A stretch of DNA of 64,000 nucleotides, taken from positions 3,951,001 through 4,015,000 of the forward strand of contig NC_092561.1 in assembly GCF_037975245.1 (NCBI RefSeq), in the 5' to 3' direction. Within the stretch, counting starts at the first letter, position 1; each line of letters begins with the position of its first letter. The position numbers and the translations under genes were made by a program. A model generated the notes under the pieces. The model saw nothing but the letters and a program-made list of their open reading frames with translations. It was not told the DNA's origin and made no database searches. Origin of the DNA: Apostichopus japonicus (taxonomy: Eukaryota > Echinodermata > Holothuroidea > Aspidochirotida > Stichopodidae). Positions 404 to 46,800 of the stretch are shown here, piece after piece.

Positions 404-550
404 CTGTAACCTGGACACGTAAGATACTCCTAGGTTTGGTATCTGTTGAGATGCTTGGTCTGGATGAGCTGTTTGCAGCTCTTTATGATACATGTTGAGA
501 GCTGCACTTTCATTATTCTGTCGCAAAGTTCCACCACCACCTGTTGGAAT
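404..550 (-). CDS. cpRas1-like exon 12 (vWA continuation)
   Basis: 147 nt, phase 0-0. Encodes IPTGGGGTLRQNNES and ends NLGVSYVSRLQ, matching the vWA helix-1 region where family members read YVSRLQ followed by Cys. The donor is CAG|gtgtgt. The 3' half plus donor is duplicated 145 bp further left, at about 259-330. Confidence 0.68.
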
Positions 551-3500
551 CTAACAAACCAAAAACAGAAAACGCAAAATGAATTTTACTTTTGATTTGC
601 ATGTTAACTCTTGTTTTATACTTATTTCAGTCTTTGGGGATAACTAACCTGAATCTAGCCTGGACTGAGAACAAGACTCAACAACTTCTAATAGACTCTC
701 ATTTTCTATCTTACCTGTATGTTTGGCCGCTGCCTTTTAACTTCCCCTTTCCATATCTCACACTCAGGCACGTAGCCAATGGGGGGGGACGGATGGGGCA
801 ACCACCCCCTCCACCCCCCCCCCCCTTGAGCATAGTTTTTGTATTTTTTTTATGATATCGCAATTAAATTCAAAATAGAAAATGCTTAGATCTGGGAGGC
901 ATTTTCGGCCACAATTTTCTTGTACATTTCGCACCAACTCATGTTGGCGCTACGCTTAGATAGTTTGCCTACAAGCTTCGCCCCTCCCTTGACAAATTCC
1001 TCACTACGCTAACACTGTTGTGTCGATGCAGAAGGAATGCCTTTTGGAAAACCGTGGCAGTACAAACGTTCATGATTGTCAGTATTCTTATAATTACGAA
1101 ACAAAACAAAAAGACCTCGCTTGGTTGTGGCATACATACCTCTGTCGTTACTGACATGCTGCCAGAAATATCAACACAGAATATGATGACAGTGTCGTCC
1201 CCGCTCTCTGAACCGGGGGAAAGTACGTAAGTCATATCACCTTGAGAAGGAAGATCCACAGCCATCGTGGAGATTAGGTTTTCAAGACCACAAAATTCAC
1301 ATCTCCAAATCTAGTGAGGAAAAGAAAATGCATCAATTTTTACAGGTTTTTTTATTTTTTTATATTTCTTTCCTTCTTTGTAATTTTCATCTTAATCCAT
1401 ATTTGGACGATACTCTTTATCAGATCAACAAGGCTGAAGAAAATACTCTTTTTTTATTTCTTAGAATAAAACAATCCACACATTTCTTAGAAATATAAAA
1501 TGCCACATGGAAAACAGTGTAATATGTTTGAAATGAAGATTAATTTAACAGTAATATATATATACATCCCAGCATTTTTGTCAGACTGCAAACATTAAAA
1601 CAGTACTTATCAGTTACAAGTATGTACTATAGTAGTAGCCAAACCAAGAATACAGGAATATCATTTTATCCAATTATCTCACATCCTTAATTTGCTCTTT
1701 AACATCTTGTTGCTGAAAATACTGTTCACTAGTGTAAAGGTAAATTAAACTCTAGCCAAAGATCCAGTTTTCTACTGTAGGGTTGAAATTGATAGCAAAG
1801 TGTGACCTGACCTAGATAAATCCTTCTAAGAGTGGACCAGTTTCCTACTGTAGGGTAAATGTGATAGCTAAGTGTGACCTGACCTAGATAAACCCTTCTA
1901 AGAGTGGACCAGTTTCCTACTGTAGGGTAAATGTGATAGCTAAGTGTGACCTGACCTAGATAAACCCTTCTAAGAGTGGACCAGTTTCCTACTGTAGGGT
2001 AAATGTGATAGCTAAGTGTGACCTGACCTAGATAAACCCTTCTAAGAATGGACCAGTTTCCTACTGTAGGGTAAATGTGATAGCTAAGTGTGACCTGACC
2101 TAGAAAAACCCTTCTAAGAATGGACCAGTTCCCTACTGTAGGGTAAATGTGATAGCTAAGTGTGCTAAGCCTATAAACCCTTCAACAAAGAGTGGACCAG
2201 TTTCCTAATGTAGGGTTAAATGTGATAGCAAAGTGTGACCTTACCTAGATAAACCCTTCTAAGAATGGACCAGTTTTCTACTGTAGGGTTAAATGTGATA
2301 GCAAAGTGTGCTAAGCCTATAACCCTTCTAAGAGTGGAGGTTACTATGTCTCGACCCATTCTCAAGTGCAATGTATCTGTTTGCCTGTGAGTTTACCAAA
2401 GTCTCAAAACCCACTGCTCATACTTTACAAGCAAACATACTACAATACTGGCAGCAGATAAGATGAGTAAACATTGAGCAAGTTCATCAATTTATAACCA
2501 CCTGAATCAACAAAGCTCTGAAAATGTTTACCTAGACCAGCTTGAAATTATATCCTTATGATTGTTATAAACAACAATAATAGTGCTATCATGTAGGAAA
2601 TAACAAATACCAGTCTCGAGACATTAACATGTTATTACTGTTATAAACAACAATGATGGTGCTATCATACACTGTAGGATATAAAAATACCATTGTTGAG
2701 ACATTAACATGTTATTACTGTTATAAACAACAATGATGGTGCTATCATATACTGTAGGAAATAACAAATACCAGTCTTGAGCAATAACATGTTATTACTG
2801 TTATCAACAACAATGATGGTGCTATCATATAGGATGAAACAAATACCAGTCTCGAGACATTAACATGTTATTACTGTTATCAACAACAATGATGGTGGTA
2901 TCATGTATAGGATGAAACAAATAGAAGTCTCAAGACATGAACATGTTATTACTGTTATAAACAACAACGATGGTGCTGTCATATAGGATATAACAAATAC
3001 CATTTTCGGGATATTAACATGTTATTACTGTTATAAACAACAATGATGGTGCTATCATATAATGTAGGATAACTTAAGACATTGTTAACAAGAGTCAGAA
3101 CAGCAGGACATAAAATACAGAAAGTAATTCTGTAGTAAAATCCAATTCATTCTTCCTTTAATTTACTGAAATGTAAATATGATGAGTTCATTCTAAAACA
3201 ACTTATTTTGAGATCTCTCAAATGACTTTCTGCAAAGACAGTTGTCATAGATACTCAGGAAATATAACTCTATGATGGGTTAAATTGGAAATATTTAGTA
3301 GAATTAATTTTAAACTGTGATTTTGACCTAATTGATCACAAATGTGTTAATTTGTTTTCAAGTATATTAGCTGCCTTGAAGGAAGGAGCTGGTAAAGGAA
3401 GTAAAGATGCCAATTATTGCATAATATTCTATGAATATTCAACACGTATCTTATCGCAACCACAAGACAGAAACGTCTCCATTAATTAGCAAAACACTGA

Positions 3501-6500
3501 CATTTTAGTATCGTACCATGACTGATGCTGGGCTTTTGCATTTCCAAGATTTTTAGCTGTTTTGAGTAAAATCTCAAGTTTATTCCCGACATGTCTCAAT
3601 TTAAACTGCATTTTCTAAGTTGAATTGTTTGAGTTGTTGTCCAGATAAATGAAGACAATTGATTGGTTTTTGAATTAAATTTTAGTCTGGGCAGAATCTT
3701 TGTCAAGACTCAGATGGAATTATTGATTATGCAACATTTGTTGAGGAATGTTACCAGGAGGTGTCTTTAAGTTTTCATCAATCGCATTCTCTTTCAAGCT
3801 TTAATGTGTTTCATGAAGTTGCTGCATAGCAGTGATGAATCATAAGTCTGATTTTGGGTGAGAGAAGGGGGTTGGGGGGGGGTGGAAGTATGCTGTTATG
3901 TTCTTACCATGCCTCTTTCATCTTCTACGACATTACTAAGATGAGAGAGCATCGATGAACACCTTTCACAAGGAACTGGCTTACCCTCCACTACTTGGGA
4001 GGGCTTTGACAGGGTATCAAACTTCACTGCCACGATATTAGTATCCGCCCGCCGCACCTTCTTGGTACCTGCATGGAGAGCAGAGCAATAAACTAATGAT
4101 ATATTTGAAAGAGATGTCTAAACATCAGGAAGTACATATAAGAAGGGTTGGAACAGAAGCGCTCATTGCAATTTATGGTCGACTTATAAGATTGACTCTA
4201 TAGTCGTTAGACGAGACACAACCTTCCAGGCTCGTAGCCAGGGGGGGGGGCGAAGGGGGCAGCCGCCCACCCCCTTGTGCATATTTTTTAATGTTTTTTT
4301 TTTAATGTTTTTATGATATTGCTAGTATTTTCAAAAGAGAAAATGCTAAGATGCAACTTACAAGGCCTGGGAAGTGCCTGGGAGCATTTTCAGCCAAAAT
4401 TTTCCTTGTACGCTTCGCGCCAACCATGGTGGCGCTACGCTTAGATAGTTTGTAATGCCGAATCTACAGTTTCGCCCCTCCCGTGGCAAATTCCTGGCTA
4501 CATGCCTGCAACCTTCATGGTAAAGGTATCATTAAATAGAATGGTGTGACTCACCTAAACTTTTCTTTAATGCCACATAGCTGTAATCATCCTCATTTGG
4601 TTGTGATGTTCGTCTTGAAGGGGGGAGGGGTGGAGGTAATGGACCACTACTTCCTTCTGTGAAAGAAATTAAATGTATGCAAATTAATTTTTTTTTGCAT
4701 CAGAGGGTAATGCAAAACAATAAAATAATTAGAATATTGCACAAATTAAGGCAGTAAAACCCGACAAACGTGATCACCATGGGATACAGATACAGCGACA
4801 GAAGAACAGACAAAATATCACAAAATTGGTCAAATTGATTGATTGATCGAAGTTATTCAACCAGGAATTTCTAACTCAGTGGTTTGTTGTGATGGAACCT
4901 CGACATGCAGCTTACATGCTTTTCAAATGATTGAACTTGTTGAACAGCAAGGAGATGGTATCATCTGATTAAAAATCTTCCTTAAAACCTATTCAGAAAT
5001 AATTAATTAATTAATTACAATAAAAAAGGATTGAGCCTAATTTGACTGGGTCTGTTCCTTTCATTACTTAATGAAGAGTCAATAGTTAGTTAACATCAAG
5101 TTTTAGTTTTGGCAAATTATACAACCATTTAACAAATGTAATATAGCAGACTGCTTCCACCAAAAGGTCCATAACAATTTGCATATGACAATGAAACTGT
5201 TTATTTCCAACATAAAAGATAAGTACATTTTAAACAAGAATTCAATACATATAATCAAATAATCATGGTATTATATTTATTTCAATGAAAACTACCAAAG
5301 ATCTAATATGAATAGGCATCCTTGCGAACCAGTCATTTTCAGTATAAGGAACTGATTTGTGAAGAGCTAAATGATTCCATTTGAGCAAGGGTATAACAAT
5401 CTGTTGCCATGGTAACATTCAAACATAGACTAATTACTTCCTGAGAGATGAATAATTATAACTCTAATGAACCGTTGAAAGCTTATATTCGTTATAACCT
5501 GGTTCTGTCCTTCCTTCTCATATTGTTTTGACCTCAAACTTCAAAATCGTTACCTTGCCTTTATTCATAACCTAAGCCACTCACTGCTATCAGCCTATCA
5601 ATGCACAATTTTTTTCCACAAATTTTTTTCTCAATGCGATACATAGAGAAAACTTTTCTAGTTGCAATTCCGTGTAAAAGCTATTTTGAAATCCAAAAAA
5701 CTACTTGAAAGAAACTATCACAGAACCACTCATCCGTACGCTTAATTAAAACATATCTTAATTATCTACACTGCTTAAAGTACTACTCGAAAAGAAATTC
5801 CTACGGAACCATCAATCACACGTTTGAAAAATATCTGAAATATCTAGACAGCTAAAATTGATGTCTTCAGTACCTCCAACAGCATCATAGACTCTGGGAA
5901 CTTCAGTGTATACAGCTCTCTGGCCCCTGCCTGTTTTCCAGGCTGTTCCTTTCTTCGTTACCTTCTGTTTCTGAGGCATGTTAGGATTGTCATATATGGT
6001 GTCAACACCAGGTTTCTGAACTAGATTAAACCAGAAAATTTAAGAGTTATACTTTGACAAGATTTTATTTGTTGTTCTGGTAGAGATTTTAAAAGGCCAC
6101 ATTTTATGCATTATATTATTAAAACACAAACTGTTGCCTACTGTACCATGACAGTCTAAATTATCTCATCATGTTACATCAGATTCCCTACAATCACATT
6201 ATGATATGGTATCTCTCCCCCACCCCCCCCCTCCCCCAAGAATTAGCCCTTTGAAAAGGAATGAACACATGATAGTGTCATCACCAAGACAAGCTTGTCT
6301 TGTAAACAACACCAACTGTCTGTCTGTCTGTCTGTCCGTCCGTCCGTCCGTATGTATGTCTAAATAAAGACAATGATATCGCACTGTCCGACGTTCTTAA
6401 AAACATGAGACTAGTATAGCTGAATAATGTTCCAATATCCAAGATATTTGCTTGCAAGATTACACACAATAAAGAATGCTTTAAGCAAATTCAAAAGAGA

Positions 6501-9500
6501 ACAGTTGACACCCCCACCCCCCCCCCCCCTCTAGTCCTCTCCCTCTGCTCTCATTAAGCCTTATCGATTCACCTGGTATTAAACACAACTTTTCTTCATA
6601 AATCCAAACTATAACTCAGGCTCCCAGATGGCATTTGAAGAAGACTACCACTTTCAGATACAGTATGCAGTTTACTCAATAGATAGAGAAAAAGAAGCTC
6701 ATATCATTAATATATGATTAATATAATACAAGATCATATTATTCATGTGCATCCATTTTCAACATCCATCCACAAGTTACATGAAGCATACTTAATTCAT
6801 TGATAAATGTGACATTCATAAAAAAAAAATCTTAAAGTAAATAAGTTTGTTAGGTTAGTAACTTCTACAAGACACTGCACCAGGATATTTGCAATGTTAT
6901 TCCATTGTATTTTATACAGTATAGCAAATTACTAAGCCAAGTACATGATAGGATAAACTGATGAGTCCTAACCTTATCAACAGTCAGAGCAACTTTTTTA
7001 AATTTGCTGAGTGAGTTTACAAAATAGAATGCCTGGGAGGTAAATATTAACAATAATACTTGACTTTTGCAGAAGAAGAGATTATATAAAGGTTAGAAAA
7101 ACAGCAAGGTAAAGCAGTGGTGACAAACAGCGTCATATACACTCAATGGTGTTGTTATTAAATTGATCTGTAGCTATACAAACATATAGGTACAGCTCTA
7201 TACAATACTACAACAGAGAACAAGGCATAGTGTATTAATATGCAAAGCCACATACTGTTAGTAAGCATCATATTATACATCTGGTTATAAGTTTCAATGG
7301 AAATTAATTAGATAATTAGGCTAAACTAACAAGTCAATGTTGACATTAATCTATTCACATATATAATCTGTTTCGCACATCTGAACAAAGCTAACGTCAC
7401 CATCAATTGGGAATTCCCCGATATCTCCTATCTTTTCTATCTAATTAGAAGATCTGGGTGGATTTAGACCTTTTTTTATTAAATGTCCAAATGTTCAGGT
7501 AGTTCTGACAAAGTAATATATATATTGGAAAATCCTTCTCAGCTGTTCTCGACATCTAGCTAGACCTAGATATCTCCAACTTGAGTATGGAATAGTGAAT
7601 TATTAATTGGAAACGGTCCTCTAACCAATCTCATCTTACATTGAGATTAATTAAACATTTAATTTCATATCTGGTACCAATATTTTATTAGGGACTGTTC
7701 AAAATTACTTTTTTTTTACTTCCCCAGAATGGGAAGAGGGAACCCTGAAATTAGACGGTCCCTTATCTAGGTAGGCGTTTTCATCCTGTTCTCCTTTCCT
7801 CTGATATATGTTAAATCCCCCCCCCCCCCCACATTACTAAAACTAAACCTCAAAGCAAAGTACTTCAGGACTGTTAATGTAGTAACAGTTGTGTTATGAG
7901 TTAGGCCACAGAGAAAAGAGATAGCAATTTGGTGTTGTAAAGGTGAGGACAAAATTCTCTTCTAAGCATGTATGCATATAGTTGTGTTATGAGCTGGCCA
8001 CAGAGAAAAGAGATAACAAAGTATAAATGGTGTTTTGAGGGTGAGGGCAATATTCTCATATAAGCATGTATGCATATCGTTGTGTTATGAGCTACGCCAC
8101 AGAGAAAAGCAAAAACAAGGTCAAAAATGGTGTTTTGAAGGTGACAACAATATTTTCTTCTAAGCATGTATGCATATAGTTGTGTTATGAGCTAGGCCAC
8201 AGAGAAAAAAGAGAAACCAAGGTCAAAAATGTGTTTTGAAGGTGAGGGCAATATTTTCTTCTAAGCATGTATGCATATAGTTGTGTTATGAGCTAGTCCA
8301 CAGAGAAATGAGTTAGCAAAGTATAAATGGTGTTTTGAGGGTGAGAATTTATTCTCATCTCAGCATGTATGCATATCGTTGAATCAATTGCAATGGATAC
8401 AACCCACAAGCAACACCAGATGAATTTGAAGCCAGATTTAATGTTTGAAGAGAGGCGTTGATCCACATGGAGGAAGCAGGGCGAAAGCTGTTTGTTGCTG
8501 TAAAGTGATCTGGTAACTTACTTGAAAGTGGAGTGTAAATCGAAGACTGTTCACCGGGTAACTTACTCTGGAGGAGTGGTGTATAGGTCGTGTCTGGGAC
8601 TTCTGGTAAGCCAGCATTATCATAAATTTCTGTAAGAAACACAAAACAAATAAAGGTTAACTGCATATGTGAGTGTTTGGGGCTAATTAGTAGATGTTTC
8701 TGTTTATTAGATCTGTTCTTAGTCTCTGCCTTATACTTGACTTACTATATAACATCATCATGTTTTCATTATCTCAGGGATGCCAACCTCTTGACACAAA
8801 AAAAAACAGACTGGATATCCTAAAAAAAATCATATTTTGGAGAGAAAAATCAAATTTTCACGAAAACTTGACACTACCACTGGCCTGTTGGCCCCGGGCC
8901 AGTAAAATGTCAGAAAAATGTTTTACTGGTAAGAACGGGCAAGGAAAATGTTTGCTTTTTCATTAACATTTAATGAGAAAATTGTAAAGCTGCCGATTCT
9001 GCGTATTTCCCGCCCATGTAGGCTCCTTGTTCAACGTGTTTGTCAGGGTTTGGGGGGCTTACTTCTATGCGATTCAGCTTTCTTTAAAAAAAATGAAAAA
9101 TGAAAAAAAAAAAGATGAAAAATCGTGTTTTCAAGAGGCAATATCATATTATCGTATTTCACTTGTTTTATAGTACTAAATACGATAAAATCGTACTGGT
9201 TGGCATCTCTGTTACCTGCATGGGGCTCCTTGCCATTCTTTTCTACATGGTTTTCACCTGTGTTTACTTAAACCCTTCATTACTTTTCTTACATGGTCTT
9301 AAGTTATTATTTTAATTGTCTTTCTTTATTGACTTTCAATATAAGTTATGTCACATGGTGTACTTAATACCACTCCTGTATTTCTTAACTGCAAGACTCG
9401 TCCGTAACAATTTTCATTAACCTATGAACAAGTTTCTTTCGATTACATCATCTTTCAGTATCTCCTGTTTAACTCACGTGTTTCTTGACCTGGTCTCTGG

Positions 9501-11388
9501 CCACCCGATGATGCTCCGAATACCGCATTATCGTAAGCTAAAGCAAATCAATAAAAAACGTTACAGTATGAGCAAATTACTATATGAATGAAAAGATAAT
9601 CAGTTTTGTTTGCAAAGAAACTATAGTACACTATAAGAGACAGAATTCAGGAGAACTTTATTAATTGTAAACAGCAGACATTTAAAGAAAAAAGGAGTAC
9701 ATTTATTTCCTTTGATTATTTCATCATTGATTTGCACATGTGTAAATCATGTGACTGACATTAATATGAAAAACTGATCACTTTTGTTTGCACAGGAACT
9801 ATAGTACTTTATAAGAGACAGAATTCAGGAGACCTTTATTAATTGTAAAGAGCAGCCATTTGTAACATCACAACAATAAAAAGGAGTGAATTTATGTCCT
9901 TTGATTATTTCATCATTGATTTGTACATGTGTAAATCATGTAGTAACTGACATTGAAACATTACACAAAGGGTATATCAAACTGTGTAGTAATTCTGAAC
10001 AAAGTCAAGAGGACATCAAGTACTCCCATTGAGGGAGTCAGAACTAAAGATAAGTACCTGTACATCAAAATATCTTCAACAGAACTTTCATGTTTCATCA
10101 TGCTCTTTTGTCTGATTCTGTAGATCAGAGATTCATTGACTCAATTGTATACTTTATTCAAAGCAGTGTTATGACCTATGACCTTTTATTAAATGACAAG
10201 GACACATTTGATTGCTTTAAAGCTACTTATCAAATTGATTGGGAAAACTTAAAAATTGTCAATATTAGCCTAAATTTTATTATCATATGAAGCTAAATAA
10301 TTGCTAATAATATTCAAAAGTATTTTTATGGAGTTTCTGTATATATTTTATATATATGGAGCTGTCTGTTAGGTTGACTATAATGTATGTGATTCTACAA
10401 TACCACACACATACAGCTGTCTGTTAGCTTGACTATCATGTGTGTGATTCTACAATACCACACACATACAGCTGTCTGTTAGCTTGACTATCATGTGTGT
10501 GATTCTACAAAACCACACACATACAGCTGTCTGTTAGGTTGACTATAGTGTATGTGATTCTACAATACCACACACATACAGCTGTCTGTTAGGTTGACTA
10601 TAATGTATGTGATTCTACAATACCACACACATACAGCTGTCTGTTAGCTTGACTATTGTGTGTGCTTCTACAATACCACACATATACAGCTGTCTGTTAG
10701 CTTGACTATCATGTATGTGATTCTACAATACCACACACATACAGCTGTCTGTTAGCTTGACTATCATGTACGTGATTCTGCAATACCACACACATAGCTA
10801 TCTGTTAGCTTGACTATCATGTATGACGGTGTGGTGGAATTATTAATAGTTGTCCAATTCTTCTGAGCCATGACCATACTTGATAAGTTTTGTGAACTAA
10901 TGACCATAACTTCCTTTAAGTTGAATTGGAGTTCAACTGTTCACATAATCTACTGTACAGTACTTACTTCTTTGTGGAGATCTTGGTTCACCGTTAGAAC
11001 TTGCACCAAAGATGGCATTGTCGTAGACTTCTGTGAAAGTGAAAACATTAGTCTGAATCAGAATCAATGTATCATGTTACAATAGGTAAATACAAACAAT
11101 CAAACATAATGTTTAGATATGAAATGAAACTGAGGAAAATCAATGGTGAACAATGCCAGACACAATAACTTTATATTAGGGGCTCTACTACAACCCTAGT
11201 CAAGCAATATATATATATATATATATATATACAGTATATATATATTTATATAGAGTTGGTTGGTTGGCGTCTATCTTGGCGCAGAGTGCTCATGGACAGA
11301 GCGGAATATATGTTCAACTCAGTTGTCTGATGATCGCTCAATGCGTGAAACTCTGAGTAAAACTACTAGTGTTCCACTAGTCTCAACA

Positions 11389-11438
<50 letters not shown>

Positions 11439-14400
11439 CTGTATTACTGAGGGCCTTCTAAGTACAAAGTTTGTCCTATACTCTAGATTTACAACCTGAT
11501 CAATGCCAAATGTTGTTGTTAATTCGGTAATGACTTTATTGGGTCATCCATTTGCAGGGCTAAGAGCACAAGATTCCTGAAGAAGTCTGTTGACAAACTT
11601 GTAGTAAATGCAAGAACTAATAATTATGTAGAATAGGATCACTAAACCCAGTCAAATCAGACCTAAATTGTTGTTAAACCCTAATAATGATTTCCTAGCT
11701 GGGGAACAGCAAGAAAATATATCATTCTTTATGTCAAACACACACCTCACAGTGAATCATATGACTTACGGTTTGCAACACTGTTGGGTTGGACTCGACC
11801 TTTATGATCGCCACGGAAACCAGGATTGTCATAGTCAGCTATGGAGGAGAAAGATGGAAACGACCAACTGTCAGTGTATAAATCAAATGTTATTATAATT
11901 CAGTTGACCAATGAAAACTTCTGTATACTGTCACATGCAAACTATTATCTAAAATTGACCAATGTCAATCAAAAGGAGAGCTTTGAATTTACATAAGAGT
12001 TAAACTCAACAGTAAATCAGTACTAGATCATATGTACTGTAGGTCACCAGGATCGGTATTGGCATGTGAAATATTATATTGCAACCAGTGCATACAATAA
12101 CTAATTTACAATTCAACAGTACAGCAGTTCCCAATCTTGAGTGGTTTTCCCCAAGATCTATTTATAGTAAATACTTTGAAAGATCTGATAGCTGTAAGCT
12201 GTGTAAGAAGTACAGATGGTAATTAAGTTTTCATATCTTTATCTAATTCTAGATGATAAAGTCAAAGAGATATCATTGTAATTCATTTTAGTACATAGGT
12301 GTAAAGGTTATTTACAACTATAACTACCATGTACAACCGCGTGTCAAGTGACATGAACTAAACAAATGCTATTAACCACGGTATAATATAATACTGTTAA
12401 GCACAGTATAATATAATGCTGTTAAGCACAGTATAATATAATGCTGTTAACCATGGTATAATTAAATGCTATTCTATGTATAATTTAATGTCAACCAGGG
12501 TATAACTAATTAATGCCATTAACCAGGGTGTAATTTAATGCTATTAACCATTGTATAATTTAATGCTATTAATCATGGTATAATTTAATGCTATTAACAA
12601 GGGTATAATTTGATGCTATCAACCAGGGTGTAATTTAACACTATTAACCAGGATACTATTTAATGCTATATTAACCAGGGTATCATTTAATGCTATTAAC
12701 CAGGGTATCATTTAATGCTATTAACCAGGGTATCATGTAATGCTATTAACCAGGATATCATTTTATGCTGTTAACCAGGATACTATTTAATGCTATTAAC
12801 CAGGGGATCATTTAATGCTATTAACCAGGATACCATTTAATGCTACTAACCAGAGTATCATTTTATGCTATTAAAAAGGATATAATATTCACAGTGGTAT
12901 CATATAACGCTATTAACGGGAGTGTAATTTAATACTGTTAACCAGGGTATATATATTTAATGATATAAACCATTGATATCATTTAATGCTATTAACCAGG
13001 ATTAACCAGGGTATCATAATTTGCAGTGTAAATTTTGTGTAGTAGTTTTGCAGTCTCTTGTAAAATACTATATGGTTTCTGTGTATAAAAACTGTTCTAC
13101 AAGTTTGCAGTTGTGTGTACAGTACATTAGCAACTAAGTTGTCCACTTTATACCAGACAATTTACTTCCGGTTAACAGACATGTAGCACTATACTGCACT
13201 GTACAAATATCAGTAACTCAAAACCTTATATAGACATCAAAAAATAGTTATATACAGTATCTCAATACAAGCTGAATTATTTTCTTATCAAGAAATAAAC
13301 CAGACTTTAGATATTTAACAACACAGTGATGTTAGGGAATAATTCATATTCCAATTCCTGGCTTGGCCAAAATGTAACTTTTTTTCTTCTCACATTACCT
13401 AGCTATGTGATGCATGCCAAACACAGTGGTTCATTTCATTGTTGAATTGATATCCATATATGAATGCTGCTAATAACAGACAATACAGTCAAGGTTAACA
13501 AGCTGAGGTAAGGCACACAACTATTGTCCAGGCTGCAATATGAATGGAGTAGTGTGCCATGCAAACTTACTGTATGCCTGTGTGCTATTTCTATTGTGTT
13601 CTTTTGAAAAGTGATTCCTTGGCAAGCCAAATTAACACAGTATTCAAGCATTACATATAGAATGGTGGGCTCATAATTGACGCACTTAAGGAGTTGATGC
13701 TGTTTGCTATGCTCTGAGCCTCTAAGCTCAGACAGGTCAGGTCCCAGAGAGTAGTAGTATCATGTTGAGGTAATTTTGGTTATTTTTAGGGAGTTAGATT
13801 TCCAAATGCCAGAATTTTCGAAATTTCAGACACAGTTAATTTTATTGGTGAACAAATATTAAACTTCTTATAACTGCTAAGTATAAAACTTTGATATCAT
13901 AAAAAAAATACAAAAAATATGCTCGAGGGGGGAGGGGCGGTCCCCCCTTTGCTCCCCCTTTGGCTATGGCAAGCGTTTAGAAATCTTGTAGGAAACAGGG
14001 CAAATTGTAACCCAGTGAACTCATATTGATGTGGATCATATATATATGATTGTACGTACTTACACTCATACACAAGAGATGTACAGACATTATTTTCTAT
14101 TTATATATAGCCAAACAAAAAAACTATGCCACCAAATATTGGAGGGGGGATAATATATACTATATCTCCCCACCTAAAATATTGGGGGTGGACATGTCCC
14201 CCCCGTCCCCCCATGATCGCCACCCATGTGAGAGAACACTTCATATGACAGACTCTGTGTTCTTCCATCACTACAGGTAAAACTATTGTAGCAGCTTTTA
14301 GTGTCATTGAATGCAGTCCAGACTCAAGCCTATGACAATTCAAAGGTGATCAATGGACTTAATTGCAGCTATCTGTGATGTTTTCCCAACTATAGAGATA

Positions 14401-17400
14401 ATGACATACTGTTGTAACAAGGACTTGAACTGAGCCAGGATAAAAACAATTAATTTTAAATTAATTTACTGGTTAAAAAGTTTGCTTATTTAGTCGAACA
14501 ACAAAATGTAGAGAACTCCATTATTGTTATTTGGTAATAACATAAATATAAAAGCAGTGGAAACTTTTAGGAGAGGGTTTCAGTTCTGCTTTACCGGATC
14601 CAACTGGTGGGGGAGGGGGGAGCGGGATTCAACTGGACCGTTGCAAGTATCATGATTGGGGGATATGACCCTCATGCCCCCTGCCCCCCCCTTGGTCCCA
14701 CCACTGTATAAAAGATACCAAAAAGTTAGGAGGAACACCCAATATAGTTATATGATGCCGGAGCCTTTACCACCATGCAGAAGGCTTACACTGTGCATGT
14801 ACTTGTAAAGACCAACCTTATTTACATACATTTAATCAGAGAACAACCATGCATTTATTGCAGTCAATTCTACACTGTAAGAAGATAAGCTTTCATTCAC
14901 ATCGTTTCTATTGTAATCAAGATTCTTTCAAAACAAAAACAAGGAAATTAATCAATGATCTAGATAAATTTGGCCTATCTTGTTGAAATGTACACTTGCA
15001 ACTTCAAGTTAAATTAGCAAAAACGGGGAATTTTAGAAGTGGATATAATCAGAGATCTACATTTAATTTCGTATCAACAAACGTATTAGAAACAGTGAAC
15101 AGAGCAGAACTATTTTCCGATGCAATACATGGAGGAAGCTATGCAATCGAACAACAAATATACATGTCTGCCAAAAGGTTTGGGTGTGTAAGTATCAAGC
15201 ACAGGTAAAAATTACTATAGGAAATACTGTTTCCTTATTTATAAGCTTGCCCCTTACTGAAAGTCTAAAGGAGGAAGTATCAACCTACAGTACTAGATCT
15301 CAAATGTCTGAACAATTGTTACTATCATTTCTTCTAAAGGGAAATACTGCACTGGTGAGGGGAAGAAAAAAATGATGTATGTGTACCAATGTGTGGGAAA
15401 TAGCAGAATATTAAATTATCTGAGTAGAGGTTCAAGTGAAGAATGAGTGGAATTACTTCTTGAAATAATCCAAACAGTTTGATCAGCAATTCACAGATGG
15501 CCCAACACCTCCGACAATACTACCATTATTCTGTCTCAACTATAAACTTCAAAATGACGATTTATAGTTTAGTCTGTGAAATGACTTCTTCTGAAATCGT
15601 TTGAATCGCTGTAAACGATGAAAGGATGTTAACTGAATGAATGGAAAAATGGAACAAGACGATAAAAGGAAACAAAAATCGATCTACTTTAACGACATTA
15701 AACGAATGTTTGTACGACAGTACCTGAAGCCGAACTTCCTGGGATTGCCACAGGCTGTAAACCGCCGTACAGTGCTACATGGATGAAAATTAGTGAATAG
15801 CGATTAAATATGAAAAGATGGTGAAATAGTCAGAAAAATGAGATGGTTAAAATGAAAGAGAATGTGAATTACTGGTTAAGTTCACACAAAGACATATAAA
15901 GAAAGAAACTTATAGAGTACTGTACTTAAAGCAATGGAAACCCAATCCTGATGGCCACGTAACTAATCCCCCTCACCCCGCCCCCCCCCCCCCTTCTCTT
16001 CTCCTTATTGAGATGAAAGTAATGAAACACTGACAACATTTAAAGAAGAAACTTAAAGAGTACTGTACTTAAAGCAAACAATGGACACCCATTAACACAT
16101 TCCAGGTTGCCACATAACTACCGACCCCCCCCCCCCCCTTCTCTTCTCCTCATTGAGATGAAACACTGTCCTACATGTACTGTACTATTCCCTCCCGTCC
16201 AAAAGGTAGTAGTCCCACCAGCAACCTCCCCCTCCCCCCAACAGTCTGTAAATAGTAGATCAGTTTACATTGATAACCATCAGATATATATCAATCCCCT
16301 GTGAGGAAGAATAGTAAAAATGATACCAAAAAATATAACTGGAAAACATCTGGCACTGATCAATTTAAATTATTAATAATTTGAGGTGAAGTTTTGCTCA
16401 ATTAGTGTATACTGATTCAAAAGTGTGACTCGTGGCTCGTCAGAGCACATGACAGGCTGAACAGTGTTAATTTGCATTTTCTTAACTGCCACAGGGTCGG
16501 TATAACCAGTCATGTCCAAGCAAGTCAAATGGAATACAGTGCACCAACTCATTATATTACTCTACAGCTGTAGCTAATATAAAACCAATTAAAAGTGTAA
16601 AACAATACAAAATTATAGCTTCATGGTACAGTAATAGGTCGTCTTTAATAATTCCAACTCAAAATTGGTTTGGTTGCCATAGCCACAAACTACAGCCTAG
16701 CTGGCAAAAGCTAGTGTCAGTTCCTCAATGAAAAAGATATGAAGACATAGTTAAACTCAACTAAAACTGAAAGCAAACTTAGACAAACTTCAGGGCAGCT
16801 TGGAAACCAAATTTTGATCTGCATTGTCTTGGTTTTGATCAATAAGTATGATTGTTGAATCCTACAGCAAGTCTAAACCAATGTTTACCAAGTAACAACA
16901 ACATGGACTCACAATAAAAAAATGTACAATACTTGTAAATGATAATTACTGTAGATAAAAGATATTAGAATTATGAAATAGACTATTACAGTCCCAACTA
17001 TATTTTGTAATATACAGAGCATGCCTTTGTGCCAAACATATTATAATACTAAGCTACCATAGGTACTGTACTAGCAACATGTTAACCACTGCCTGGTGTT
17101 AACACAGTCTGTTTATTTAATAACTTAACCATTGCTTGCATATCGTACCACGCTGTAGGCTATGTCTACATCAGCAGTTTCAGCCAGGAACTGTTTTATG
17201 ATCATATTACAATGCAGATATTATTTGCATAAATTGCAACTTAATGGCAAAGGTAGAAAGACTTACCGTTATTCACCGATAGGCCTTGATATAGGGCAAA
17301 TCTAGTGAAAAGTAGAAAAATAAATAACAGGCTTGAGCAGTCAAATTATGCTAAAAAGAAGTTTATTTGAGGCAGAATTTTGACTAGAGCACAGCCATTG

Positions 17401-18505
17401 TTGATTCCATCTTTGTTGATCGGGTAGATTTTGAATTAAGCCATACGATATTGTTTTCAAATTCTTGTAAAGTTAAAGAGTCATGTGCATACATTTTTCA
17501 TGTACCGAATCAGAATGTTGAATAGTTGCATATATTATTAAAAGGTCAGAAACGTACAAACAATGATTACAAGTTCCCCTCAAAAGTACAGTACAATCCA
17601 GTGTTATTTACAAAGTTCTTATCAACAGAACATCAATTTCATAGTATGTAAGTACTACAATGATCACATTTTGAAGTTAAAGGTTTATGTTCAGTCAACA
17701 TGAGCACATTACACATAAATACCTTCCTAACAGATTAACTTCACAATCTTTTTTAAGTTTTGAAGTTCTACAGGTACAGGTTTATACTGTACTGTGCTGT
17801 AGGTATCACATACACAATGCACAGTTCAAAGTCAAAATTATATATGCAAAGCACTACAGTATCTCCCACAATTTGTGTGATAAAGTGATTCCACTAAAAG
17901 TTAAAATATATAAAACGATTCTTTTAGACCCTGGGGATCTACTTCCTTTTAAGAAGAGTCCATTGTGTAGGACGGTCCTGTTTTATTTATAACTGAATTA
18001 ATGGCTTGTGTTTGCTTGCATCACACAATGTTCAACATACAGTATTTTAATTGGTTTTTTGGTTTATTGGTTGTTAGTAAACTAATTTACCTCAAGAGTG
18101 ATATAATGACTATAGTAGATGCAGTCCAGCATGTACTTGAGCAGGGCAGAATCTCTTGATTTGGCAAGTCACACCAATTTTTTATTATTATTTTTTTGGT
18201 GGGGGGGGGATAAGAATTTCTTCATACAAGGTATATTTATGGAAAGTCACAACTTATGAAAAAAAAATCCTTAAATATAATTGGCCTTGGTATATGACAA
18301 TGTAATGATAGAAGTGGAACAGATACTGCAGATATTTTACATTTTGTTAAGAAACTTGCTGGGGAGGAGTGAACAATTAAATTTATTAAATTAAGTAGGC
18401 TACTGTACTCCTACAGTATACTTACGCCCCCTCCATGTAACTATCATCAATCTCTTCTTCATCAGATTCATCATAATTTAAGATATGGGTGGAAGCAAAC
18501 TCCAT
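404..18505 (-). CDS. cpRas1-like zinc-ribbon/vWA protein with tyrosine-motif tail (3' end outside window)
   Basis: Twelve coding exons can be joined with consistent phases: 18505-18426, 17301-17267, 15774-15724, 11838-11770, 11030-10968, 9537-9478, 8629-8417, 6020-5874, 4656-4555, 4068-3908, 1310-1140, 550-404 (1299 nt, 433 codons). Seen: acidic N-terminus (residues 1-26); YDN motifs at Tyr 58, 81, 101, 122 and 200; further tyrosines in VYTEVP, RVYDAVG and YSYVAL (228-269); PLPPPLPPSRR at 245-255; zinc ribbon CERC (307-310) and CEFC (331-334); vWA start with MIDAS DISGS (374-378). Known: a Sec23/24-like zinc finger followed by vWA and a circularly permuted Ras GTPase is the architecture of cpRas1 proteins of Dictyostelium and scattered animals. 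Inferred: this is such a protein, a signalling scaffold with SH2 and SH3 docking sites. The GTPase part would lie left of base 404. An alternative is another vWA protein with a Sec23-like zinc ribbon. The start was chosen at an ATG with good context (AAGATGG). Confidence 0.68.
765..1008 (+). mobile_element. hAT-type MITE, degraded copy
   Basis: Starts CAGGCACGTAGCCA, has the poly-G/poly-C segment and the GTTGGCGCTACGC core of the intact copies at 4227 and 60286. The right inverted repeat is lost. Flanks CTCACACT (757-764) and CTAACACT (1009-1016) look like a decayed 8-bp target duplication. Confidence 0.6.
1140..1310 (-). CDS. cpRas1-like exon 11 (zinc ribbon and vWA MIDAS)
   Basis: 171 nt, phase 0-0. 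Begins IWRCEFCGLENL (second zinc knuckle) and ends with VIIFCVDISGSMSVTTE, a vWA first strand with a DxSxS MIDAS motif. The acceptor is CCTCACTAG and the donor GAG|gtatgt. Confidence 0.8.
1762..2338. repeat. 72-bp minisatellite, about 8 copies
   Basis: The unit contains GTGGACCAGTTTCCTACTG and TGACCTGACCTAGATAAA and recurs at 1832, 1904 and onward every 72 bp. It lies in the cpRas1-like intron between exons 10 and 11. The left copies are almost identical and the right ones drift, with small deletions. Confidence 0.9.
2561..3070. repeat. ~75-80-bp minisatellite, about 6-7 copies
   Basis: The unit contains ACATGTTATTACTGTTATAA and GATGGTGCTATCAT; CATGTTATTACTG recurs at 2628, 2708 and 2788 and on to 3070. 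Same intron as the 72-bp array but an unrelated unit. From 3071 to 3907 I see no gene or further repeat, only a G-rich run near 3866-3885. Confidence 0.88.
3908..4068 (-). CDS. cpRas1-like exon 10 (first half of zinc ribbon)
   Basis: 161 nt, phase 1 in and phase 0 out. Encodes TKKVRRADTNIVAVKFDTL and EGKPVPCERCSSML. CERC is the first zinc knuckle. This is where the disordered tail ends and folded sequence begins. Confidence 0.75.
4227..4508 (+). mobile_element. hAT-type MITE with 8-bp target duplication
   Basis: 282 bp. The left end CAGGCTCGTAGCCA is the inverse of the right end TGGCTACATGCCTG. Direct 8-bp flanks CAACCTTC at 4219-4226 and 4509-4516. The interior has G and C runs and no coding capacity. 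Terminal CAGG and 8-bp duplications are typical of the hAT superfamily; the element is non-autonomous. Confidence 0.85.
4555..4656 (-). CDS. cpRas1-like exon 9 (proline-rich SH3-type motif)
   Basis: 102 nt, phase 1-1. Encodes GSSGPLPPPLPPSRRTSQ followed by NEDDYSYVALKKSL. PLPPSR fits the class II SH3 ligand pattern PxxPx(R/K). The donor is TTTAG|gtgagt. Confidence 0.72.
4657..5873. other. cpRas1-like intron 8; palindromic X-box-like site
   Basis: No gene or tandem array seen. It contains GTTGCCATGGTAAC at 5403-5416, a perfect 14-bp palindrome matching the RFX-factor X-box pattern. Confidence 0.5.
5874..6020 (-). CDS. cpRas1-like exon 8 (IYDNPN, basic stretch, VYTEVP)
   Basis: 147 nt, phase 1-1. 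Encodes the fifth YDN motif (TIYDNPNMPQ), a basic segment (KQKVTKKG, KTGRGQR) and two more tyrosines in AVYTEVPRVYDAVG. The acceptor is TTTAATCTAG. Confidence 0.72.
6319..6362. repeat. Tetranucleotide microsatellite (TGTC/CGTC/TATG)
   Basis: About 11 units, drifting from TGTC through CGTC to TATG. It lies in intron 7 of the cpRas1-like gene. The rest of 6021-7887 shows poly-C runs (6218, 6511, 7817) but nothing gene-like. Confidence 0.9.
7888..8382. repeat. ~98-bp minisatellite, 5 copies
   Basis: The unit begins GTTGTGTTATGAGCTAGGCC and ends AAGCATGTATGCATAT; copies start near 7888, 7981, 8079, 8180 and 8281. It ends about 35 bp from the exon 7 donor, so its left-hand drift may have shaped that weak donor. 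Confidence 0.88.
8417..8629 (-). CDS. cpRas1-like exon 7 (IYDNAG plus YTPL repeats)
   Basis: 213 nt, phase 1-1. Starts IYDNAGLPEVPDTTYTPLLQ and then has a second copy of the SKLP and IYTPLSSKLPD block, an internal repeat with two YTPL tyrosines. The donor TCTG|gtgttg is weak, but the phase fits exon 8 exactly. A ~98-bp minisatellite ends about 35 bp downstream of the donor. Confidence 0.65.
8775..9211. mobile_element. hAT-like element, TIRs only
   Basis: The left end CAGGGATGCCAACC and right end GGTTGGCATCTCTG are inverse with one mismatch. The interior is non-coding, with a GGCCCCGGGCC palindrome. The flanking 8-mers (CATTATCT and TTACCTGC) do not match, so the target duplication is lost or the ends are misplaced. 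Confidence 0.5.
9478..9537 (-). CDS. cpRas1-like exon 6 (YDNAVFGASS motif)
   Basis: 60 nt, phase 1-1. Encodes TYDNAVFGASSGGQRPGQET. Duplicate of exon 5. The donor is CAC|gtgagt and the acceptor TTGCTTTAG. Confidence 0.75.
9590..9962. repeat. ~179-bp tandem duplication
   Basis: Two copies, each with AACTATAGTAC, AGAGACAGAATTCAGGAGA and TTTCATCATTGATTTG in the same order. Located in cpRas1-like intron 5. No coding potential. Confidence 0.85.
10360..10822. repeat. 55-bp minisatellite, about 8 copies
   Basis: The unit contains AGCTGTCTGTTAG, TTGACTATCATG and ACAATACCACACACATAC; copies start at 10360, 10416, 10471 and onward. It lies between the duplicated exons 5 and 6. Ends about 145 bp left of exon 5. 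Confidence 0.9.
10968..11030 (-). CDS. cpRas1-like exon 5 (YDNAIFGASS motif)
   Basis: 63 nt, phase 1-1. Encodes VYDNAIFGASSNGEPRSPQR. The central ten residues nearly match exon 6, so the two exons look like a tandem exon duplication. The donor is GAA|gtaagt. Confidence 0.75.
11206..11440 (+). mobile_element. TA-flanked element with degenerate hammerhead-like motif
   Basis: Lies between (TA)n tracts at 11206-11250 and 11394-11438. It shares TTGGCGTCTATCTTGGCGCA, GGACAGAGCGGAATATATG and the ACTAGTG/CACTAGT hairpin with the palindrome element at 26.4-26.7 kb. Core CTGATGA (11327-11333), short stem II, and GAAAC (11347-11351) follow the hammerhead order. Stem I has lost a base relative to the other copy. 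Confidence 0.6.
11770..11838 (-). CDS. cpRas1-like exon 4 (YDNPGF motif)
   Basis: 69 nt, phase 1-1. Encodes ADYDNPGFRGDHKGRV and PNSVAN. First exon of the YDN series; the tyrosine is Tyr58. The donor is CC|gtaagt and the acceptor CTCCATAG. Confidence 0.72.
12356..13019. repeat. ~24-bp minisatellite, about 26 drifting copies
   Basis: The unit is roughly TTTAATGCTATTAACCAGGG plus TATCA. Heavily diverged, with insertions; located in cpRas1-like intron 3. Confidence 0.9.
13020..15723. other. Rest of cpRas1-like intron 3; transposon fragments
   Basis: No exon seen. 13880-13975 matches the inner part of the hAT MITE (GATATCATAAAA, ATATGCTCGAGGGGGG) in reverse. 14130-14225 and 14600-14710 are other decayed elements with paired G and C runs. 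Short open frames here lack any coding character. Confidence 0.5.
15724..15774 (-). CDS. cpRas1-like exon 3
   Basis: 51 nt, symmetric phase 1-1, encoding LYGGLQPVAIPGSSAS. The acceptor is CATGTAG and the donor CAG|gtactg. The LYxGL core repeats that of exon 2 (LYQGLS), so the two may be old duplicates. Confidence 0.68.
15895..16165. repeat. ~142-bp duplication with poly-C runs
   Basis: Two copies, each with GAGTACTGTACTTAAAGC, a C run of about 15 and TTCTCTTCTCC then ATTGAGATGAAA. Located in cpRas1-like intron 2. I see nothing else from 16166 to 17266, and nothing in 17302-18425. Confidence 0.8.
17267..17301 (-). CDS. cpRas1-like exon 2 (35-nt microexon)
   Basis: The acceptor is TTTCACTAG and the donor G|gtaagt. 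Encodes FALYQGLSVNN. It enters in phase 2 and leaves in phase 1, linking the first exon to the series of phase-1 exons that follows. Confidence 0.65.
18426..18505 (-). CDS. cpRas1-like coding exon 1 (start codon)
   Basis: Encodes 26 residues plus two bases: MEFASTHILNYDES followed by DEEEIDD and SYMEG. The donor is GC|gtaag. The exon probably extends upstream as 5'UTR to an acceptor at 18540 (pyrimidine-rich stretch ending in TTTAG). An upstream noncoding exon near 20.3 kb is likely. Confidence 0.65.
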
Positions 18506-40650: not shown

Positions 40651-42693
40651 ATCAAGGCATCAACCTCATACATGGACCTGTAGCATGTAGTTCTTCACAC
40701 TGTCGTCCTGTACACATCAACCTCATACATAGACCTATAGCATGAAGTTCTGCACACTGTCGTCCTGTACACATCAACCTCATACATGGACCTGTAGCAT
40801 GAAGTTCTTCACACTGTCGTCCTGTAAACATCAACCTCATACATGGACCTGTAGCATGAAGTTCTTCACACTGTCGTCCTGTAAACATCAACCTCATACA
40901 TGGACCTGTAGCATGAAGTTCATCACACTGTCGTCCTGTACACATCAACCTCATACATAGACCTGTAGCATGAAGATTCTTCACACTGTCGTCCTGTACA
41001 CATCAACCTCATACATGGACCTGTAGCATGAAGTTCTTCACACTGTCGTCCTGTACACATCAACCTCATACATGGACCTGTAGCATGAAGTTCTTCACAT
41101 TGTCGTCCTGTACACATCAACCTCATACATAGACCTGTAGCATGAAGTTCTTCACACTGTCGTCCTGTACACATCAACCTCATACATGGACCTGTAGCAT
41201 GAAGTTCTTCACACTGTCGTCCTGTACACATCAACCTCATACATGGACCTGTAGCATGAAGTTCTTCACACTGTCGTCCTGTACACATCAACCTCATACA
41301 TGGACCTGTAGCATGAAGTTCTTCACACTGTCGTCCTGTACACATCAACCTCATACATGGACCTGTAGCATAAAGTTCTTCACACTGTCGTCCTGTACAC
41401 ATCAACCTCATACATAGACCTGTAGCATGAAGTTCTTCACACTGTCATCCTGCACACATCAACCTCATACATAGACCTGTAGCGTGAAGTTCTTCACACT
41501 GTCGTCCTGTACACATCAACCTCATACATAGACCTGTAGCATGAAGTCCTTCACACTGTCGTCCTGTACACATCAACCTCATACATAGACCTGTAGCATA
41601 AAGTTCTTCACACTGTCGTCCTGTACACATCAACCTCATACATAGACCTGTAGCGTGAAGTTCTTCACACTGTCGTCCTGTACACATCAACCTCATACAT
41701 GGACCTGTAGCATGAAGTTCTTCACAATGTCGTCCTGTACACATCAACCTCATACATGGACCTGTAGCATGAAGTTCTTCACACTGTCGTCCTGTACACA
41801 TCAACCTCATACATGGACCTGTAGCATGAAGTTCTTCACACTGTCGTCCTGTACACATCAACCTCATACATGGACCTGTAGCATGAAGTTCTTCACACTG
41901 TCGTCCTGTACACATCAACCTCATACATGGACCTGTAGCATGAAGTTCTTCACACTGTCGTCCTGTACACATCAACCTCATACATGGACCTGTAGCATGA
42001 AGTTCTTCACACTGTCGTCCTGTAAACATCAACCTCATACATGGACCTGTAGCATGAAGTTCTTCACACTGTCGTCCTGTAAACATCAACCTCATACATA
42101 GACCTGTAGCATGAAGTTCATCACACTGTCGTCCTGTACACATCAACCTCATACATGGACCTGTAGCATGAAGTTCTTCACACTGTCGTCCTGTACACAT
42201 CCACCTCATACATGGACCTGTAGCATGAAGTTCTTCACACTGTCGTCCTGTAAACATCAACCTCATACATAGACCTGTAGCATGAAGTTCTTCACACTGT
42301 CGTCCTGTACACATCAACCTCATACATAGACCTGTAGCATGAAGTTCTTCACACTGTCGTCCTGTACACATCAACCTCATACATGGACCTGTAGCATGAA
42401 GTTCTTCACACTGTCGTCCTGTACACATCAACCTCATACATGGACCTGTAGCATGAAGTTCTTCACATTGTCGTCCTGTACACATCAACCTCATACATAG
42501 ACCTGTAGCATGAAGTTCTTCACACTGTTGTCCTGTACACATCAACCTCATACATAGACCTGTAGCATGAAGTTCTTCACACTGTCGTCCTGTACACATC
42601 AACCTCATACATGGACCTGTAGCATGAAGTTCTTCACACTGTCGTCCTGTACACATCAACCTCATACATGGACCTGTAGCATAAAGTTCTTCA
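40651..42693. repeat. 57-bp minisatellite, about 36 copies, open on both strands
   Basis: The unit holds CATCAACCTCATACATGGAC, CTGTAGCATGAAGTTCTTCA and CACTGTCGTCCTGTACA. 57 is 19 codons, so the minus strand reads MRLMCTGRQCEELHATGPC repeatedly (up to 406 codons at 42665-41445) and the plus strand MKFFTLSSCTHQPHTWTCS. No splice, promoter or homology evidence for translation. One-base insertions (about 40973) and substitutions break the frames. Confidence 0.93.
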
Positions 42694-42795
42694 AAGTCTC
42701 CTAATACACATGTGTATTAGACACCACAGTAGATGTCCTACAATAGACAACATATAATTATACATGTCTTCTACTCTTCATTCAAACTTGGGTGA

Positions 42796-43649: not shown

Positions 43650-43888
43650 TCAAAATTTTAAGGGAGGAAACTTAGAAGAAGTTCTTGGAGTGGATATTTT
43701 AGGTTTCTTTCTCCCACCACTGAGGGATTCTTCTAAGTTAATTCTGTCCAGCGGTTGGTCTTCGTCGGTGTCCTCATTGAAGAGGGTGTCATCTGAATCT
43801 TCTGCGCTTGAGGAAACGGGACAATACCGAATAAAGCCTTTGAGGTGTGGGCTGGAACTCCCACTACTCACTGGATCCATATCATAAC
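43650..43888 (-). CDS. DAGLA: DAGLA last exon, PPLKF terminus
   Basis: 239 nt, phase 1 in, TGA at 43652-43650. Encodes YDMDPVSSGSSSPHLKGF, an acidic stretch (EDSDDTLFNEDTDEDQ) and the end STPRTSSKFPPLKF. PPLKF fits the Homer EVH1 ligand PPxxF. Confidence 0.9.
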
Positions 43889-46800
43889 CTGAAAAAAAAC
43901 AAAGAAAAAAAAAAGCAAGAATGAGAAGAAGCAGGAGTAAACGTATACAAGAACACTCAGGGGAATTTTTCAAGCTGACTTGGCAAGCCCTCAACTTCTC
44001 CTACCTCCCCACCCCCCCCACCCATCCACACCCTAACTGTCCCTTGTCCTCTCCTACTCCACAGACAGAAGTTCACAAAGCACTTCTCACCATAAACCAT
44101 TTCTCATTTTATTGGGAGGTTTTAGACAATCAAAGTATAAACCAAGGATACTAGATGGGATGGGAGCCTGATGCTCTTTGTTGGTCACTCCTCCCCACTC
44201 TCCTATCCTCTCCTATAGATGAACACATCCATCAGTGAATAAGAAATGATGAAAAGAGAACACAGGAAAAGTCATCATTCACATTACCTTATTACCCCAT
44301 CCCACTTCCCTCCCCTACCCTCCCCCCCCCCTTCAAAACATTCTTCCCCAGAACTCTGATTGACCAAAGGAAAAGTCACAATACTACATCATAAAATCAA
44401 TCACAATATACTTATACAAAGTAAATGAACAATGGCAAGCTGCCTGGGAAATTATAAACACTTGACAAGAGCATTTTCCATTACAGTTCACTGTCTGTGA
44501 CTTAGACTGGAACACTGACTTGAACTCACGTCTAAGTTTTGGCGTTTCCTCCTGAGATTCTGATGTATGCGGGGAGTTCCGTCCATTGTCGTATGTTAAA
44601 GTGTACCTATCCCTGACAGATGTGCGACCTTTGACATTACCGAACCTGTCCACCAATTGAGTACTCTCGGGTCTCTTCAGATGCAAAGTCGGAGAGATGT
44701 TCTTCGAATCGTCCCAGGACATTCGCTTGTTCGATTCTATCACAGCGTTTGTCACAAAAGAGTTGCCGGGCTTCGGATCTGGGAAGATTTCTGTTTCATC
44801 CATATCGTGGAAGACAAAGTAACAGTATCCTTCAGAATGAGTACTTAAACGGTTCTTAGCCTTCTCCTCTGGTATATCCAGGGACCCTCTAGCGCTGCTG
44901 CTTTCTGTGTCGATGCTGGTCAAAGACTCGACGCTAGCCATCGGTGCGGACTTGTTTGATTCCTCGCTCGCTAATCTTTGCCTCCTACGTCTCTCTACCT
45001 CAGCCTGGGCACACTTCCTACACGGAGATACTAACGTGGAGTCGCTCTCAAAGAGATACAGATCTTCGTTTCCTGGTCCCCAGGATCTCCTCGATACGAC
45101 ACCTGGTCTGGATGCATATGCATGAGATGCAAATCTACTTGAATTAATGGATCCAGAACCTCTCTGTAGAGTTGACCCTGGACTTGCATAATCAGACGTG
45201 GAGGTTTTTTGTTGGCCAGAGTAAAGTTTCAGAGAATTATCAGCTTGCGGACCAGAATATGCATTAGGTAATGATGACGAATGAGATGATATGTGCCTCT
45301 CATCTGTATTAGTTTCTGTCGATTCTGGGATGGGGTGCATCTGTAGACAAGAGGATGGTGGGGATCCACTGGAATGTGATGGTTCATTGGTAACATCCTC
45401 CCCAATGACGCAAAGACGAGACACAACTTTGTTGGCCCAGGTGGGAGCCTTACGGAGCTTACTGAACTCAACACACTGAGGAAGGAAGGAAGTAAGTAAA
45501 GAAATAAGTGCAATGCCTGTAATAATAAAACTTTTAAAAAAGTAAGAATATCAAGAATGTATCATATCATGTCTACCTAGTTCAACCTGCAATCATATCT
45601 ACCTAGTTCAATGGTCAATCCTATTTACTAGCTTGCATGCTGGATATCAAATGGGATAATCTGCTTACATTTTAAGAACTGAACAAAAATTTAAATATGC
45701 AAACTTTAATATGCTAAAAATCCAATAGTGGTTTTGTAAACATTCAAAGATATAATTGATTACAATGATGTTTACCTTATTTAATGCTTTCTGCATTCCT
45801 TTTGGCATATGATCATCAACAATCACTGGAGATATTAATACTTCTTGGAAATCTGTTTGGTCCCTCCGTATTACATAATAACCAACAGACTTCTTGTCCA
45901 AGCTGATGTAAAATAAAAAAAAAATTAAATTAAAGCAAAAAGGTAAAAAGTCTTAAAGGTAGACATTCCAACTAGCTTGTCTTTATATTAAGACAGCACT
46001 GGGCAGCACTGAGCATGCTGTAGTACATGATACTTACCTCAGCTTCAGTATATTATAGAAATGGTTTGTTTGAAGGTCTAAAATTGTGACACTTGAAAAC
46101 TTCTGGATATAAATGTAAAATAATCAAACACACAAAACAAATTGTGAAATCTGTAACATACCCTTCTCGCTTTGGGTTATTCCTGACAATATGGAGAATA
46201 TTTCCTGGAGGATACAGAAGATTGTGGCTGGTGAGGTTGAGAGATGGATTCGTTGGATGAGCGTTGCAGGTGAGTTGACGACCGGGAGGTGCCTCTAATG
46301 TACCGTCATGGGGAGCAATGTTATCAGGATGAATACGACAGCAACAGCAAAGTTCACCAAGGATAATACTCCACTGTAAACAAGGATCATCAAAAATATT
46401 TATCTTTTAATTTGTTAATTTGAAACTTTTGAAGATAGTTCTGACATAGTGGTTTTAGCAATCAATGCTTTCCACAGACCACAGCTCTCTTGAGATGGGA
46501 TCCGAGGAAGACTGCTTTAACTCTGTGGTTCTTTCAACTTATAATCAGTTTTTTTCCAGTAATGCTAATATGTGGTACAGATACACTACCTCAAGATGTT
46601 GGCCTCGTTTGAAGATTGAACATAACAAGGCATTTCTCTACTATAATGTGTTTTCCAGTTATGCTAATCTGTGGTACAGATACCCTACTTCACGATCTTG
46701 GCTTCGTTTAATGATTGAAGATAACAAGGAACTTCTCTATTCTAATGTTCTTTCCAGTAATGCTAATCTTTGGTACCGATACCCTACCTTAGGATGTTGG

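Follow-up and report, generated by a model that had tools for sequence, protein, structure and literature searches.

The 64,000-nucleotide stretch of the Apostichopus japonicus genome considered here (contig NC_092561.1, C1:3951001–4015000; hereafter the window) carries on its minus strand a predicted gene whose product combines an N-terminal tail rich in tyrosine motifs with a zinc ribbon and a von Willebrand factor A (vWA) domain. The locus raises the question of whether such a tail is physically joined, within one chain, to a circularly permuted Ras (cpRas) GTPase, as proposed in a preliminary description of this DNA, or whether it stands in the place of the GTPase. From the evidence set out below, the gene is probably a GTPase-less relative of the cpRas1 family, that is, a Sec23/24-like ribbon–vWA protein with a tail that would serve for multivalent phosphotyrosine docking. 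The genome searched comprises 671,581,487 bases in 35 contigs.

The exon model was assembled by eye and by script from the genomic sequence. It contains 20 exons with GT–AG borders and an unbroken reading frame, and encodes 723 residues exclusive of the C-terminal end. Twelve exons lie within the window, from the A of the ATG at position 18505 to the last base of exon 12 at position 404, exactly the ends given in the preliminary description; the gene leaves the window beyond this point and its eight further modelled exons reach at least C1:3943264. The four cysteines upstream of the vWA domain are present as CERC (exon 10) and CEFC (exon 11), in a ribbon split by an intron, and the metal ion-dependent adhesion site (MIDAS) of the vWA domain, of the type DxSxS, reads DISGS. 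Scanning the 723-residue model against Pfam yielded Sec23_trunk (PF04811) above the cut-off (E 8e-8), VWA_2 (4.7e-5) and zf-Sec23_Sec24 (2.2e-4), both below it, and no other Sec23/24 domain; the tail gave nothing above the cut-off. No NCBIfam family exceeded its cut-off, and matches in the PDB were weak, involving Sec24 chains across the ribbon region (E 0.005). A search of the genome with zf-Sec23_Sec24 returned two matches, both on contig 6, the window gene with its intron-split ribbon not being among them. Viral contigs searched for the ribbon–vWA half contained five stretches matching a pattern, none of them a relative.

This half has relatives in the same genome. It gave 18 matches at 29–45% identity per match, nine of them corresponding to the gene's own exons and nine falling into clusters on contigs 8 and 10, and exon 10 and its counterpart, the ribbon exon in a cpRas paralogue, share 38% identity (E 2e-9), which bears out the kinship with the cpRas1 family proposed earlier. 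The cpRas-like loci form two clusters, C8:18.515–18.68 Mb and C10:19.04–19.09 Mb, with members on both strands. At least six loci (C8 at 18.52, 18.55, 18.64 and 18.67 Mb; C10 at 19.055 and 19.081 Mb) show the end of the Ras profile ahead of its start in the direction of the strand. Probes from contig 8 match the contig 10 copy at 86–100% (seven probes, the vWA probe itself being taken from contig 10). Two of the six loci were read through the cpRas part, the contig 8 gene as an assembled model and the contig 10 gene as open frames only. Both display DTAGQ, NKSD, ETSAK, GSGGVGKSS and PTIEE or PTIED followed by the ribbon, hence the order G3-G4-G5-G1-G2 on the N-terminal side of the ribbon, in agreement with the cpRAS order and its position before zinc finger and VWA in the available part of Elias & Novotny 2008 (PMC2430557). 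The order G4-G5-G1-G2-G3 expected in the preliminary description is the one given there for the YRG family.

Whereas the N-terminal half of the contig 8 paralogue matches Pfam Ras with E 1.4e-45, no Ras is among the Pfam matches of the window gene model with E of 1 or less. Ahead of the ribbon, where the paralogues of the same genome carry the permuted Ras domain, the window gene has the tyrosine tail. Four cpRas pieces were compared by tblastn with 82 kb around the gene, reaching 45 kb upstream of exon 1 and 10 kb beyond the final exon of the model, and the best match had an E value of 0.52. As a control, the same four probes were all found in the contig 10 locus (E 9e-12 to 1e-34), and within the same 82 kb the window gene itself was detected by the probes for the ribbon (2e-9) and the vWA domain (2e-10). 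A regular-expression search for DTAGQ or DxAGxE gave no match on either strand, and the lone P-loop-like match lies on the plus strand at 57600. Among the Ras matches listed for the genome, which cover 150 of 282 candidates scored and descend to about E 1e-4, none falls at C1:3.93–4.02 Mb. With no recognisable cpRas piece in 82 kb and a working control, the gene is of the GTPase-less kind. Unless a cpRas block is added by trans-splicing or lies beyond these 82 kb, a single chain comprising both a Grb2-recruiting YxN array and the permuted GTPase therefore has next to no chance of being correct, although the ribbon–vWA half is that of cpRas1 proteins; indeed, the two cpRas genes read have no YxN in their N-terminal halves (293 and 280 residues) either. 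The preliminary description had made the fusion depend on a GTPase further downstream, and extension of the gene to the left reveals none within the 10 kb that follow the model.

On the other hand, what had been described of the tail and the core is largely borne out. The motifs VYTEVP (residue 193), RVYDAVG (200) and YSYVAL (229/231), the Cys4 ribbon and the MIDAS are all present in the model, and the 238 residues of the tail contain 15 tyrosines and five YDN. The number of YDN and the first four positions (residues 58, 81, 101 and 122) agree with the earlier account; the fifth is found at residue 165, residue 200 belonging to YDAV. All five triplets (plus-strand coordinates 11833, 11025, 9535, 8624 and 5994, read on the minus strand) lie inside phase-consistent exons bordered by AG and GT. 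The first 30 kb hold nine YDN on the minus strand, four of them outside the gene model, and four on the plus strand. Tyrosine makes up 6.3% of the tail (15/238) vs. 1.9% of the remaining model (9/485). When the tail was shuffled 200,000 times, five or more YDN never appeared (on average 0.056 per shuffle), and five YxN were reached in 19 of 50,000 shuffles, so that composition offers no explanation for the array. Two of the five sites read YDNP, and the tail further contains ALYQGL, ALYGGL, two YTPL and the proline-rich PLPPPLPPSRR. A sixth YDN (VLYDNKGG, residue 654) belongs to the C-terminal half, in the exon C1:3945198–3945154 to the left of the window; the neighbouring exon C1:3943434–3943264 carries a PIYDLVG motif.

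Part of the array has arisen by duplication. Exons 5 and 6 are duplicates (alignment z-score 11.6, and 6.2 after removal of YDN, a retest made for this pair only), and at least two YDN exons are thus related by copying; the five YDN are accordingly not five independent events. Exon 7 aligns with exon 5 at z 6.1, with exon 4 at z 3.1 and with exon 8 at z 4.2, values that include the YDN letters used for choosing the exons, and it contains an internal repeat (z 4.8). Exons 2 and 3 are not claimed as duplicates (z 3.6, 13 of 2000 shuffles being equally good). Exons 3 to 9 are all symmetric, with phase 1-1, and each of the seven carries one to three tyrosine motifs; loss or doubling of any of them therefore leaves the frame intact. 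Exon 7 offers a choice of donor, after 8567 or after 8522; the two sites are 45 bases apart, have the identical sequence GTAAGTTACC and both keep the frame, and depending on the one used the second YTPL could be included or skipped.

These features would also be expected if the tail were a fast-evolving, disordered segment in which small tyrosine exons were duplicated by drift, the ribbon–vWA half being functional and the motifs unused as SH2 ligands. Besides the duplicated exons and the equivalent donors of exon 7, this neutral origin would fit the poor conservation ascribed to the N-terminal and linker regions of the cpRas1 family in the available part of PMC2430557, as well as the result of searching the genome with the tail, in which all eight matches were the gene's own exons, exon 2 gave no match and no copy was found elsewhere. 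YDN is nevertheless retained in exons 5 and 6, two clear duplicates that differ at other residues, and tyrosines are enriched in the tail, which the PxxP stretch adjoins. We regard a neutral tail as a serious, though less likely, alternative to the docking tail.

Alternatively, the tyrosine exons might form a gene of their own ahead of a ribbon–vWA gene, or be part of a stretch there that is unused or pseudogenic. The introns are long, and exon 1 is only weakly similar to the N-terminus of cpRas proteins. Its homology with that N-terminus (MEFAS... vs. MEFGS...) was not accepted and is kept as a lead, the z-scores being 1.9 and 2.3, and equally good scores arising in 278 and 154 of 5000 shuffles, respectively. 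Against such a division, the frame is kept across all exon joins of the model, and the seven 1-1 exons lead into a ribbon exon that is entered in phase 1, as is the ribbon exon of the contig 8 paralogue, the sole paralogue assembled. We consider it improbable, with a slim chance at best, that the tyrosine exons are not part of the ribbon–vWA gene.

For the GTPase-less protein with a docking tail, a mode of action can be outlined. The tail would be disordered and cytosolic, Src- or Abl-like kinases would phosphorylate its tyrosines, and the YDN sites would then act as docking points for Grb2-type SH2 domains. Readers of pYxxP also accept YDNP, other SH2 domains bind YxxL/V and SH3 domains bind PxxP, and the corresponding elements of the tail may be used in the same manner. 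The ribbon–vWA half would anchor this docking platform to a partner of its own, and control would be exerted via tyrosine phosphorylation instead of a built-in GTP switch, with a link to Ras provided through Sos. Recruitment of Grb2 and regulation of the tail by tyrosine kinases are possible.

Candidate readers and kinases exist in the genome. A search with a human GRB2 query detected Grb2-like exons on contig 19. The Grb2-like SH2 locus L008 (KYFIWVVKFNSLNELVEYHK) has a Trp, within KYFIWVVKFNSL, at the position of GRB2 Trp121, the residue of the SH2 domain that selects Asn at +2 (pYxN). A contig 9 locus with SH2 and SH3 (C9:23.27 Mb) was rejected as Grb2, since its pieces read as a Src-like SH3-SH2-kinase, a name that derives from reading of the pieces. 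Binding of YxN peptides by the SH2 domains of GADS and GRB2, with affinities of about 1–4 uM, is described for CD6 and CD28 in the available part of PMC5440646. The transcripts of sea star eggs include twelve tyrosine kinases as well as homologues of Grb2, PLC-gamma and Cbl, Src-family kinases and PLC-gamma act in egg activation, and the pathway has been compared with T cell activation (PMC11593052, available part).

Several points weigh against this reading of the gene. A second Grb2-like locus (L007, contig 19) has a Tyr in place of the Trp of L008, and the two may represent a split in SH2 specificity. The triplet YDN has no occurrence in the available part of PMC5440646, which leaves Asp at +1 without backing from that source. 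The motif count is inflated by exon duplication, and this does not amount to a demonstration of selection for multivalency. Only one exon border agrees with the contig 8 paralogue: the ribbon exon is left in phase 0 here vs. 2 there, and exon 1 in phase 2 here vs. 0 there. Moreover, the N-terminal probe of the paralogue failed to detect exon 1.

A bolder reading goes further than the GTPase-less docking protein, and we give it a small chance. According to it, a domain swap has taken place in which an echinoderm cpRas1 paralogue lost (or never had) its Ras switch, gained a multivalent YxN tail by tandem duplication of phase-1 exons on the N-terminal side of the ribbon and is able to recruit outside Ras through Grb2–Sos, as a LAT-like condensing scaffold on a Sec23-like vWA core. 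If this were true, the protein could be a missing scaffold of echinoderm tyrosine-kinase signalling, for instance in egg activation. The array itself suggests exon-by-exon growth of a scaffold tail. Phosphotyrosine ligands in place of a GTPase would also provide a concrete handle on the role of cpRas1-type proteins, to which there was little clue in 2008 (Elias & Novotny, PMC2430557, available part) and for which no later functional work was found in the open-licence literature.

Table 1. Exons of the ribbon–vWA gene located in the window (window coordinates; phases as entry and exit).
Exon	Position	Strand	Phase	Content
1	18426..18505	-	0 in, 2 out	start codon and acidic MEFASTHILNYDESDEEEIDDSYMEG
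2	17267..17301	-	2 in, 1 out	AFALYQGLSVNN, motif ALYxGL
3	15724..15774	-	1-1	ALYGGLQPVAIPGSSAS
4	11770..11838	-	1-1	YDN no. 1 (residue 58), ADYDNPGF
5	10968..11030	-	1-1	YDN no. 2 (residue 81), QVYDNAIFGASSNG
6	9478..9537	-	1-1	YDN no. 3 (residue 101), TYDNAVFGASSGG
7	8522..8629	-	1-1	YDN no. 4 (residue 122) and two YTPL
8	5874..6020	-	1-1	YDN no. 5 (residue 165), YTEVP (193), YDAVG (200)
9	4555..4656	-	1-1	proline-rich PLPPPLPPSRR and YSYVAL
10	3908..4068	-	1 in, 0 out	KxRRAD block; CERC as the first CxxC of the ribbon
11	1140..1310	-		second CxxC (CEFC) and vWA MIDAS DISGS
12	404..550	-		vWA continued; final exon inside the window

Apart from the exons, the introns of the gene and the remainder of the window contain a few elements of a different nature. 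Two intronic open stretches on the minus strand (L001; C1:3947725–3948168 and C1:3944300–3944641) resemble, by eye, C-terminal parts of a non-long terminal repeat reverse transcriptase. An intron tract at 12380–13040 is made up of degenerate, tandemly repeated units of some 22 bases resembling TACCCTGGTTAATAGCATTAAA, likewise recognised by eye. On the minus strand at 40652–42716, a long minisatellite with CMRLMCTGRQCEELHATGP repeats generates three adjoining or overlapping open frames and is unlikely to be a gene. Long Ser-rich open frames at 43650–45550, also on the minus strand, probably belong to an upstream neighbour and include one TYDNGRN motif; a Pfam scan of 298 residues from the 44384–45550 frame was negative at E values of 0.1 or below.

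When compared with known systems, the window gene has in common with cpRas1 (cpRAS-VWA) proteins the Cys4 zinc ribbon and the Sec23-trunk-type vWA half, whereas the cpRAS domain is not found and the tyrosine-motif tail precedes the ribbon instead. Relatives that possess zinc finger and VWA without cpRAS are reported from Strongylocentrotus, Lottia, Capitella, Dictyostelium, Entamoeba and ciliates in the available part of PMC2430557, and the window gene corresponds to them in its domain make-up, ribbon and VWA with no vestige of cpRAS. It differs from them, as far as a comparison by description goes, in its tyrosine array, the words "tyrosine" and "SH2" being absent from the main text of that article. 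In line with the preliminary description, no such array was found in the open-licence literature searched on cpRas and on VWA with Grb2 or YxN. Sec23 and Sec24 of the COPII coat share the ribbon and the vWA-like trunk; the window gene is much diverged from them, and the Pfam scan listed none of their other domains for it. Finally, the tail resembles LAT-type adaptor tails, which carry several YxN sites each; no sequence relation to them is claimed, and the array of the window gene is distinguished by its attachment to a ribbon–vWA protein.

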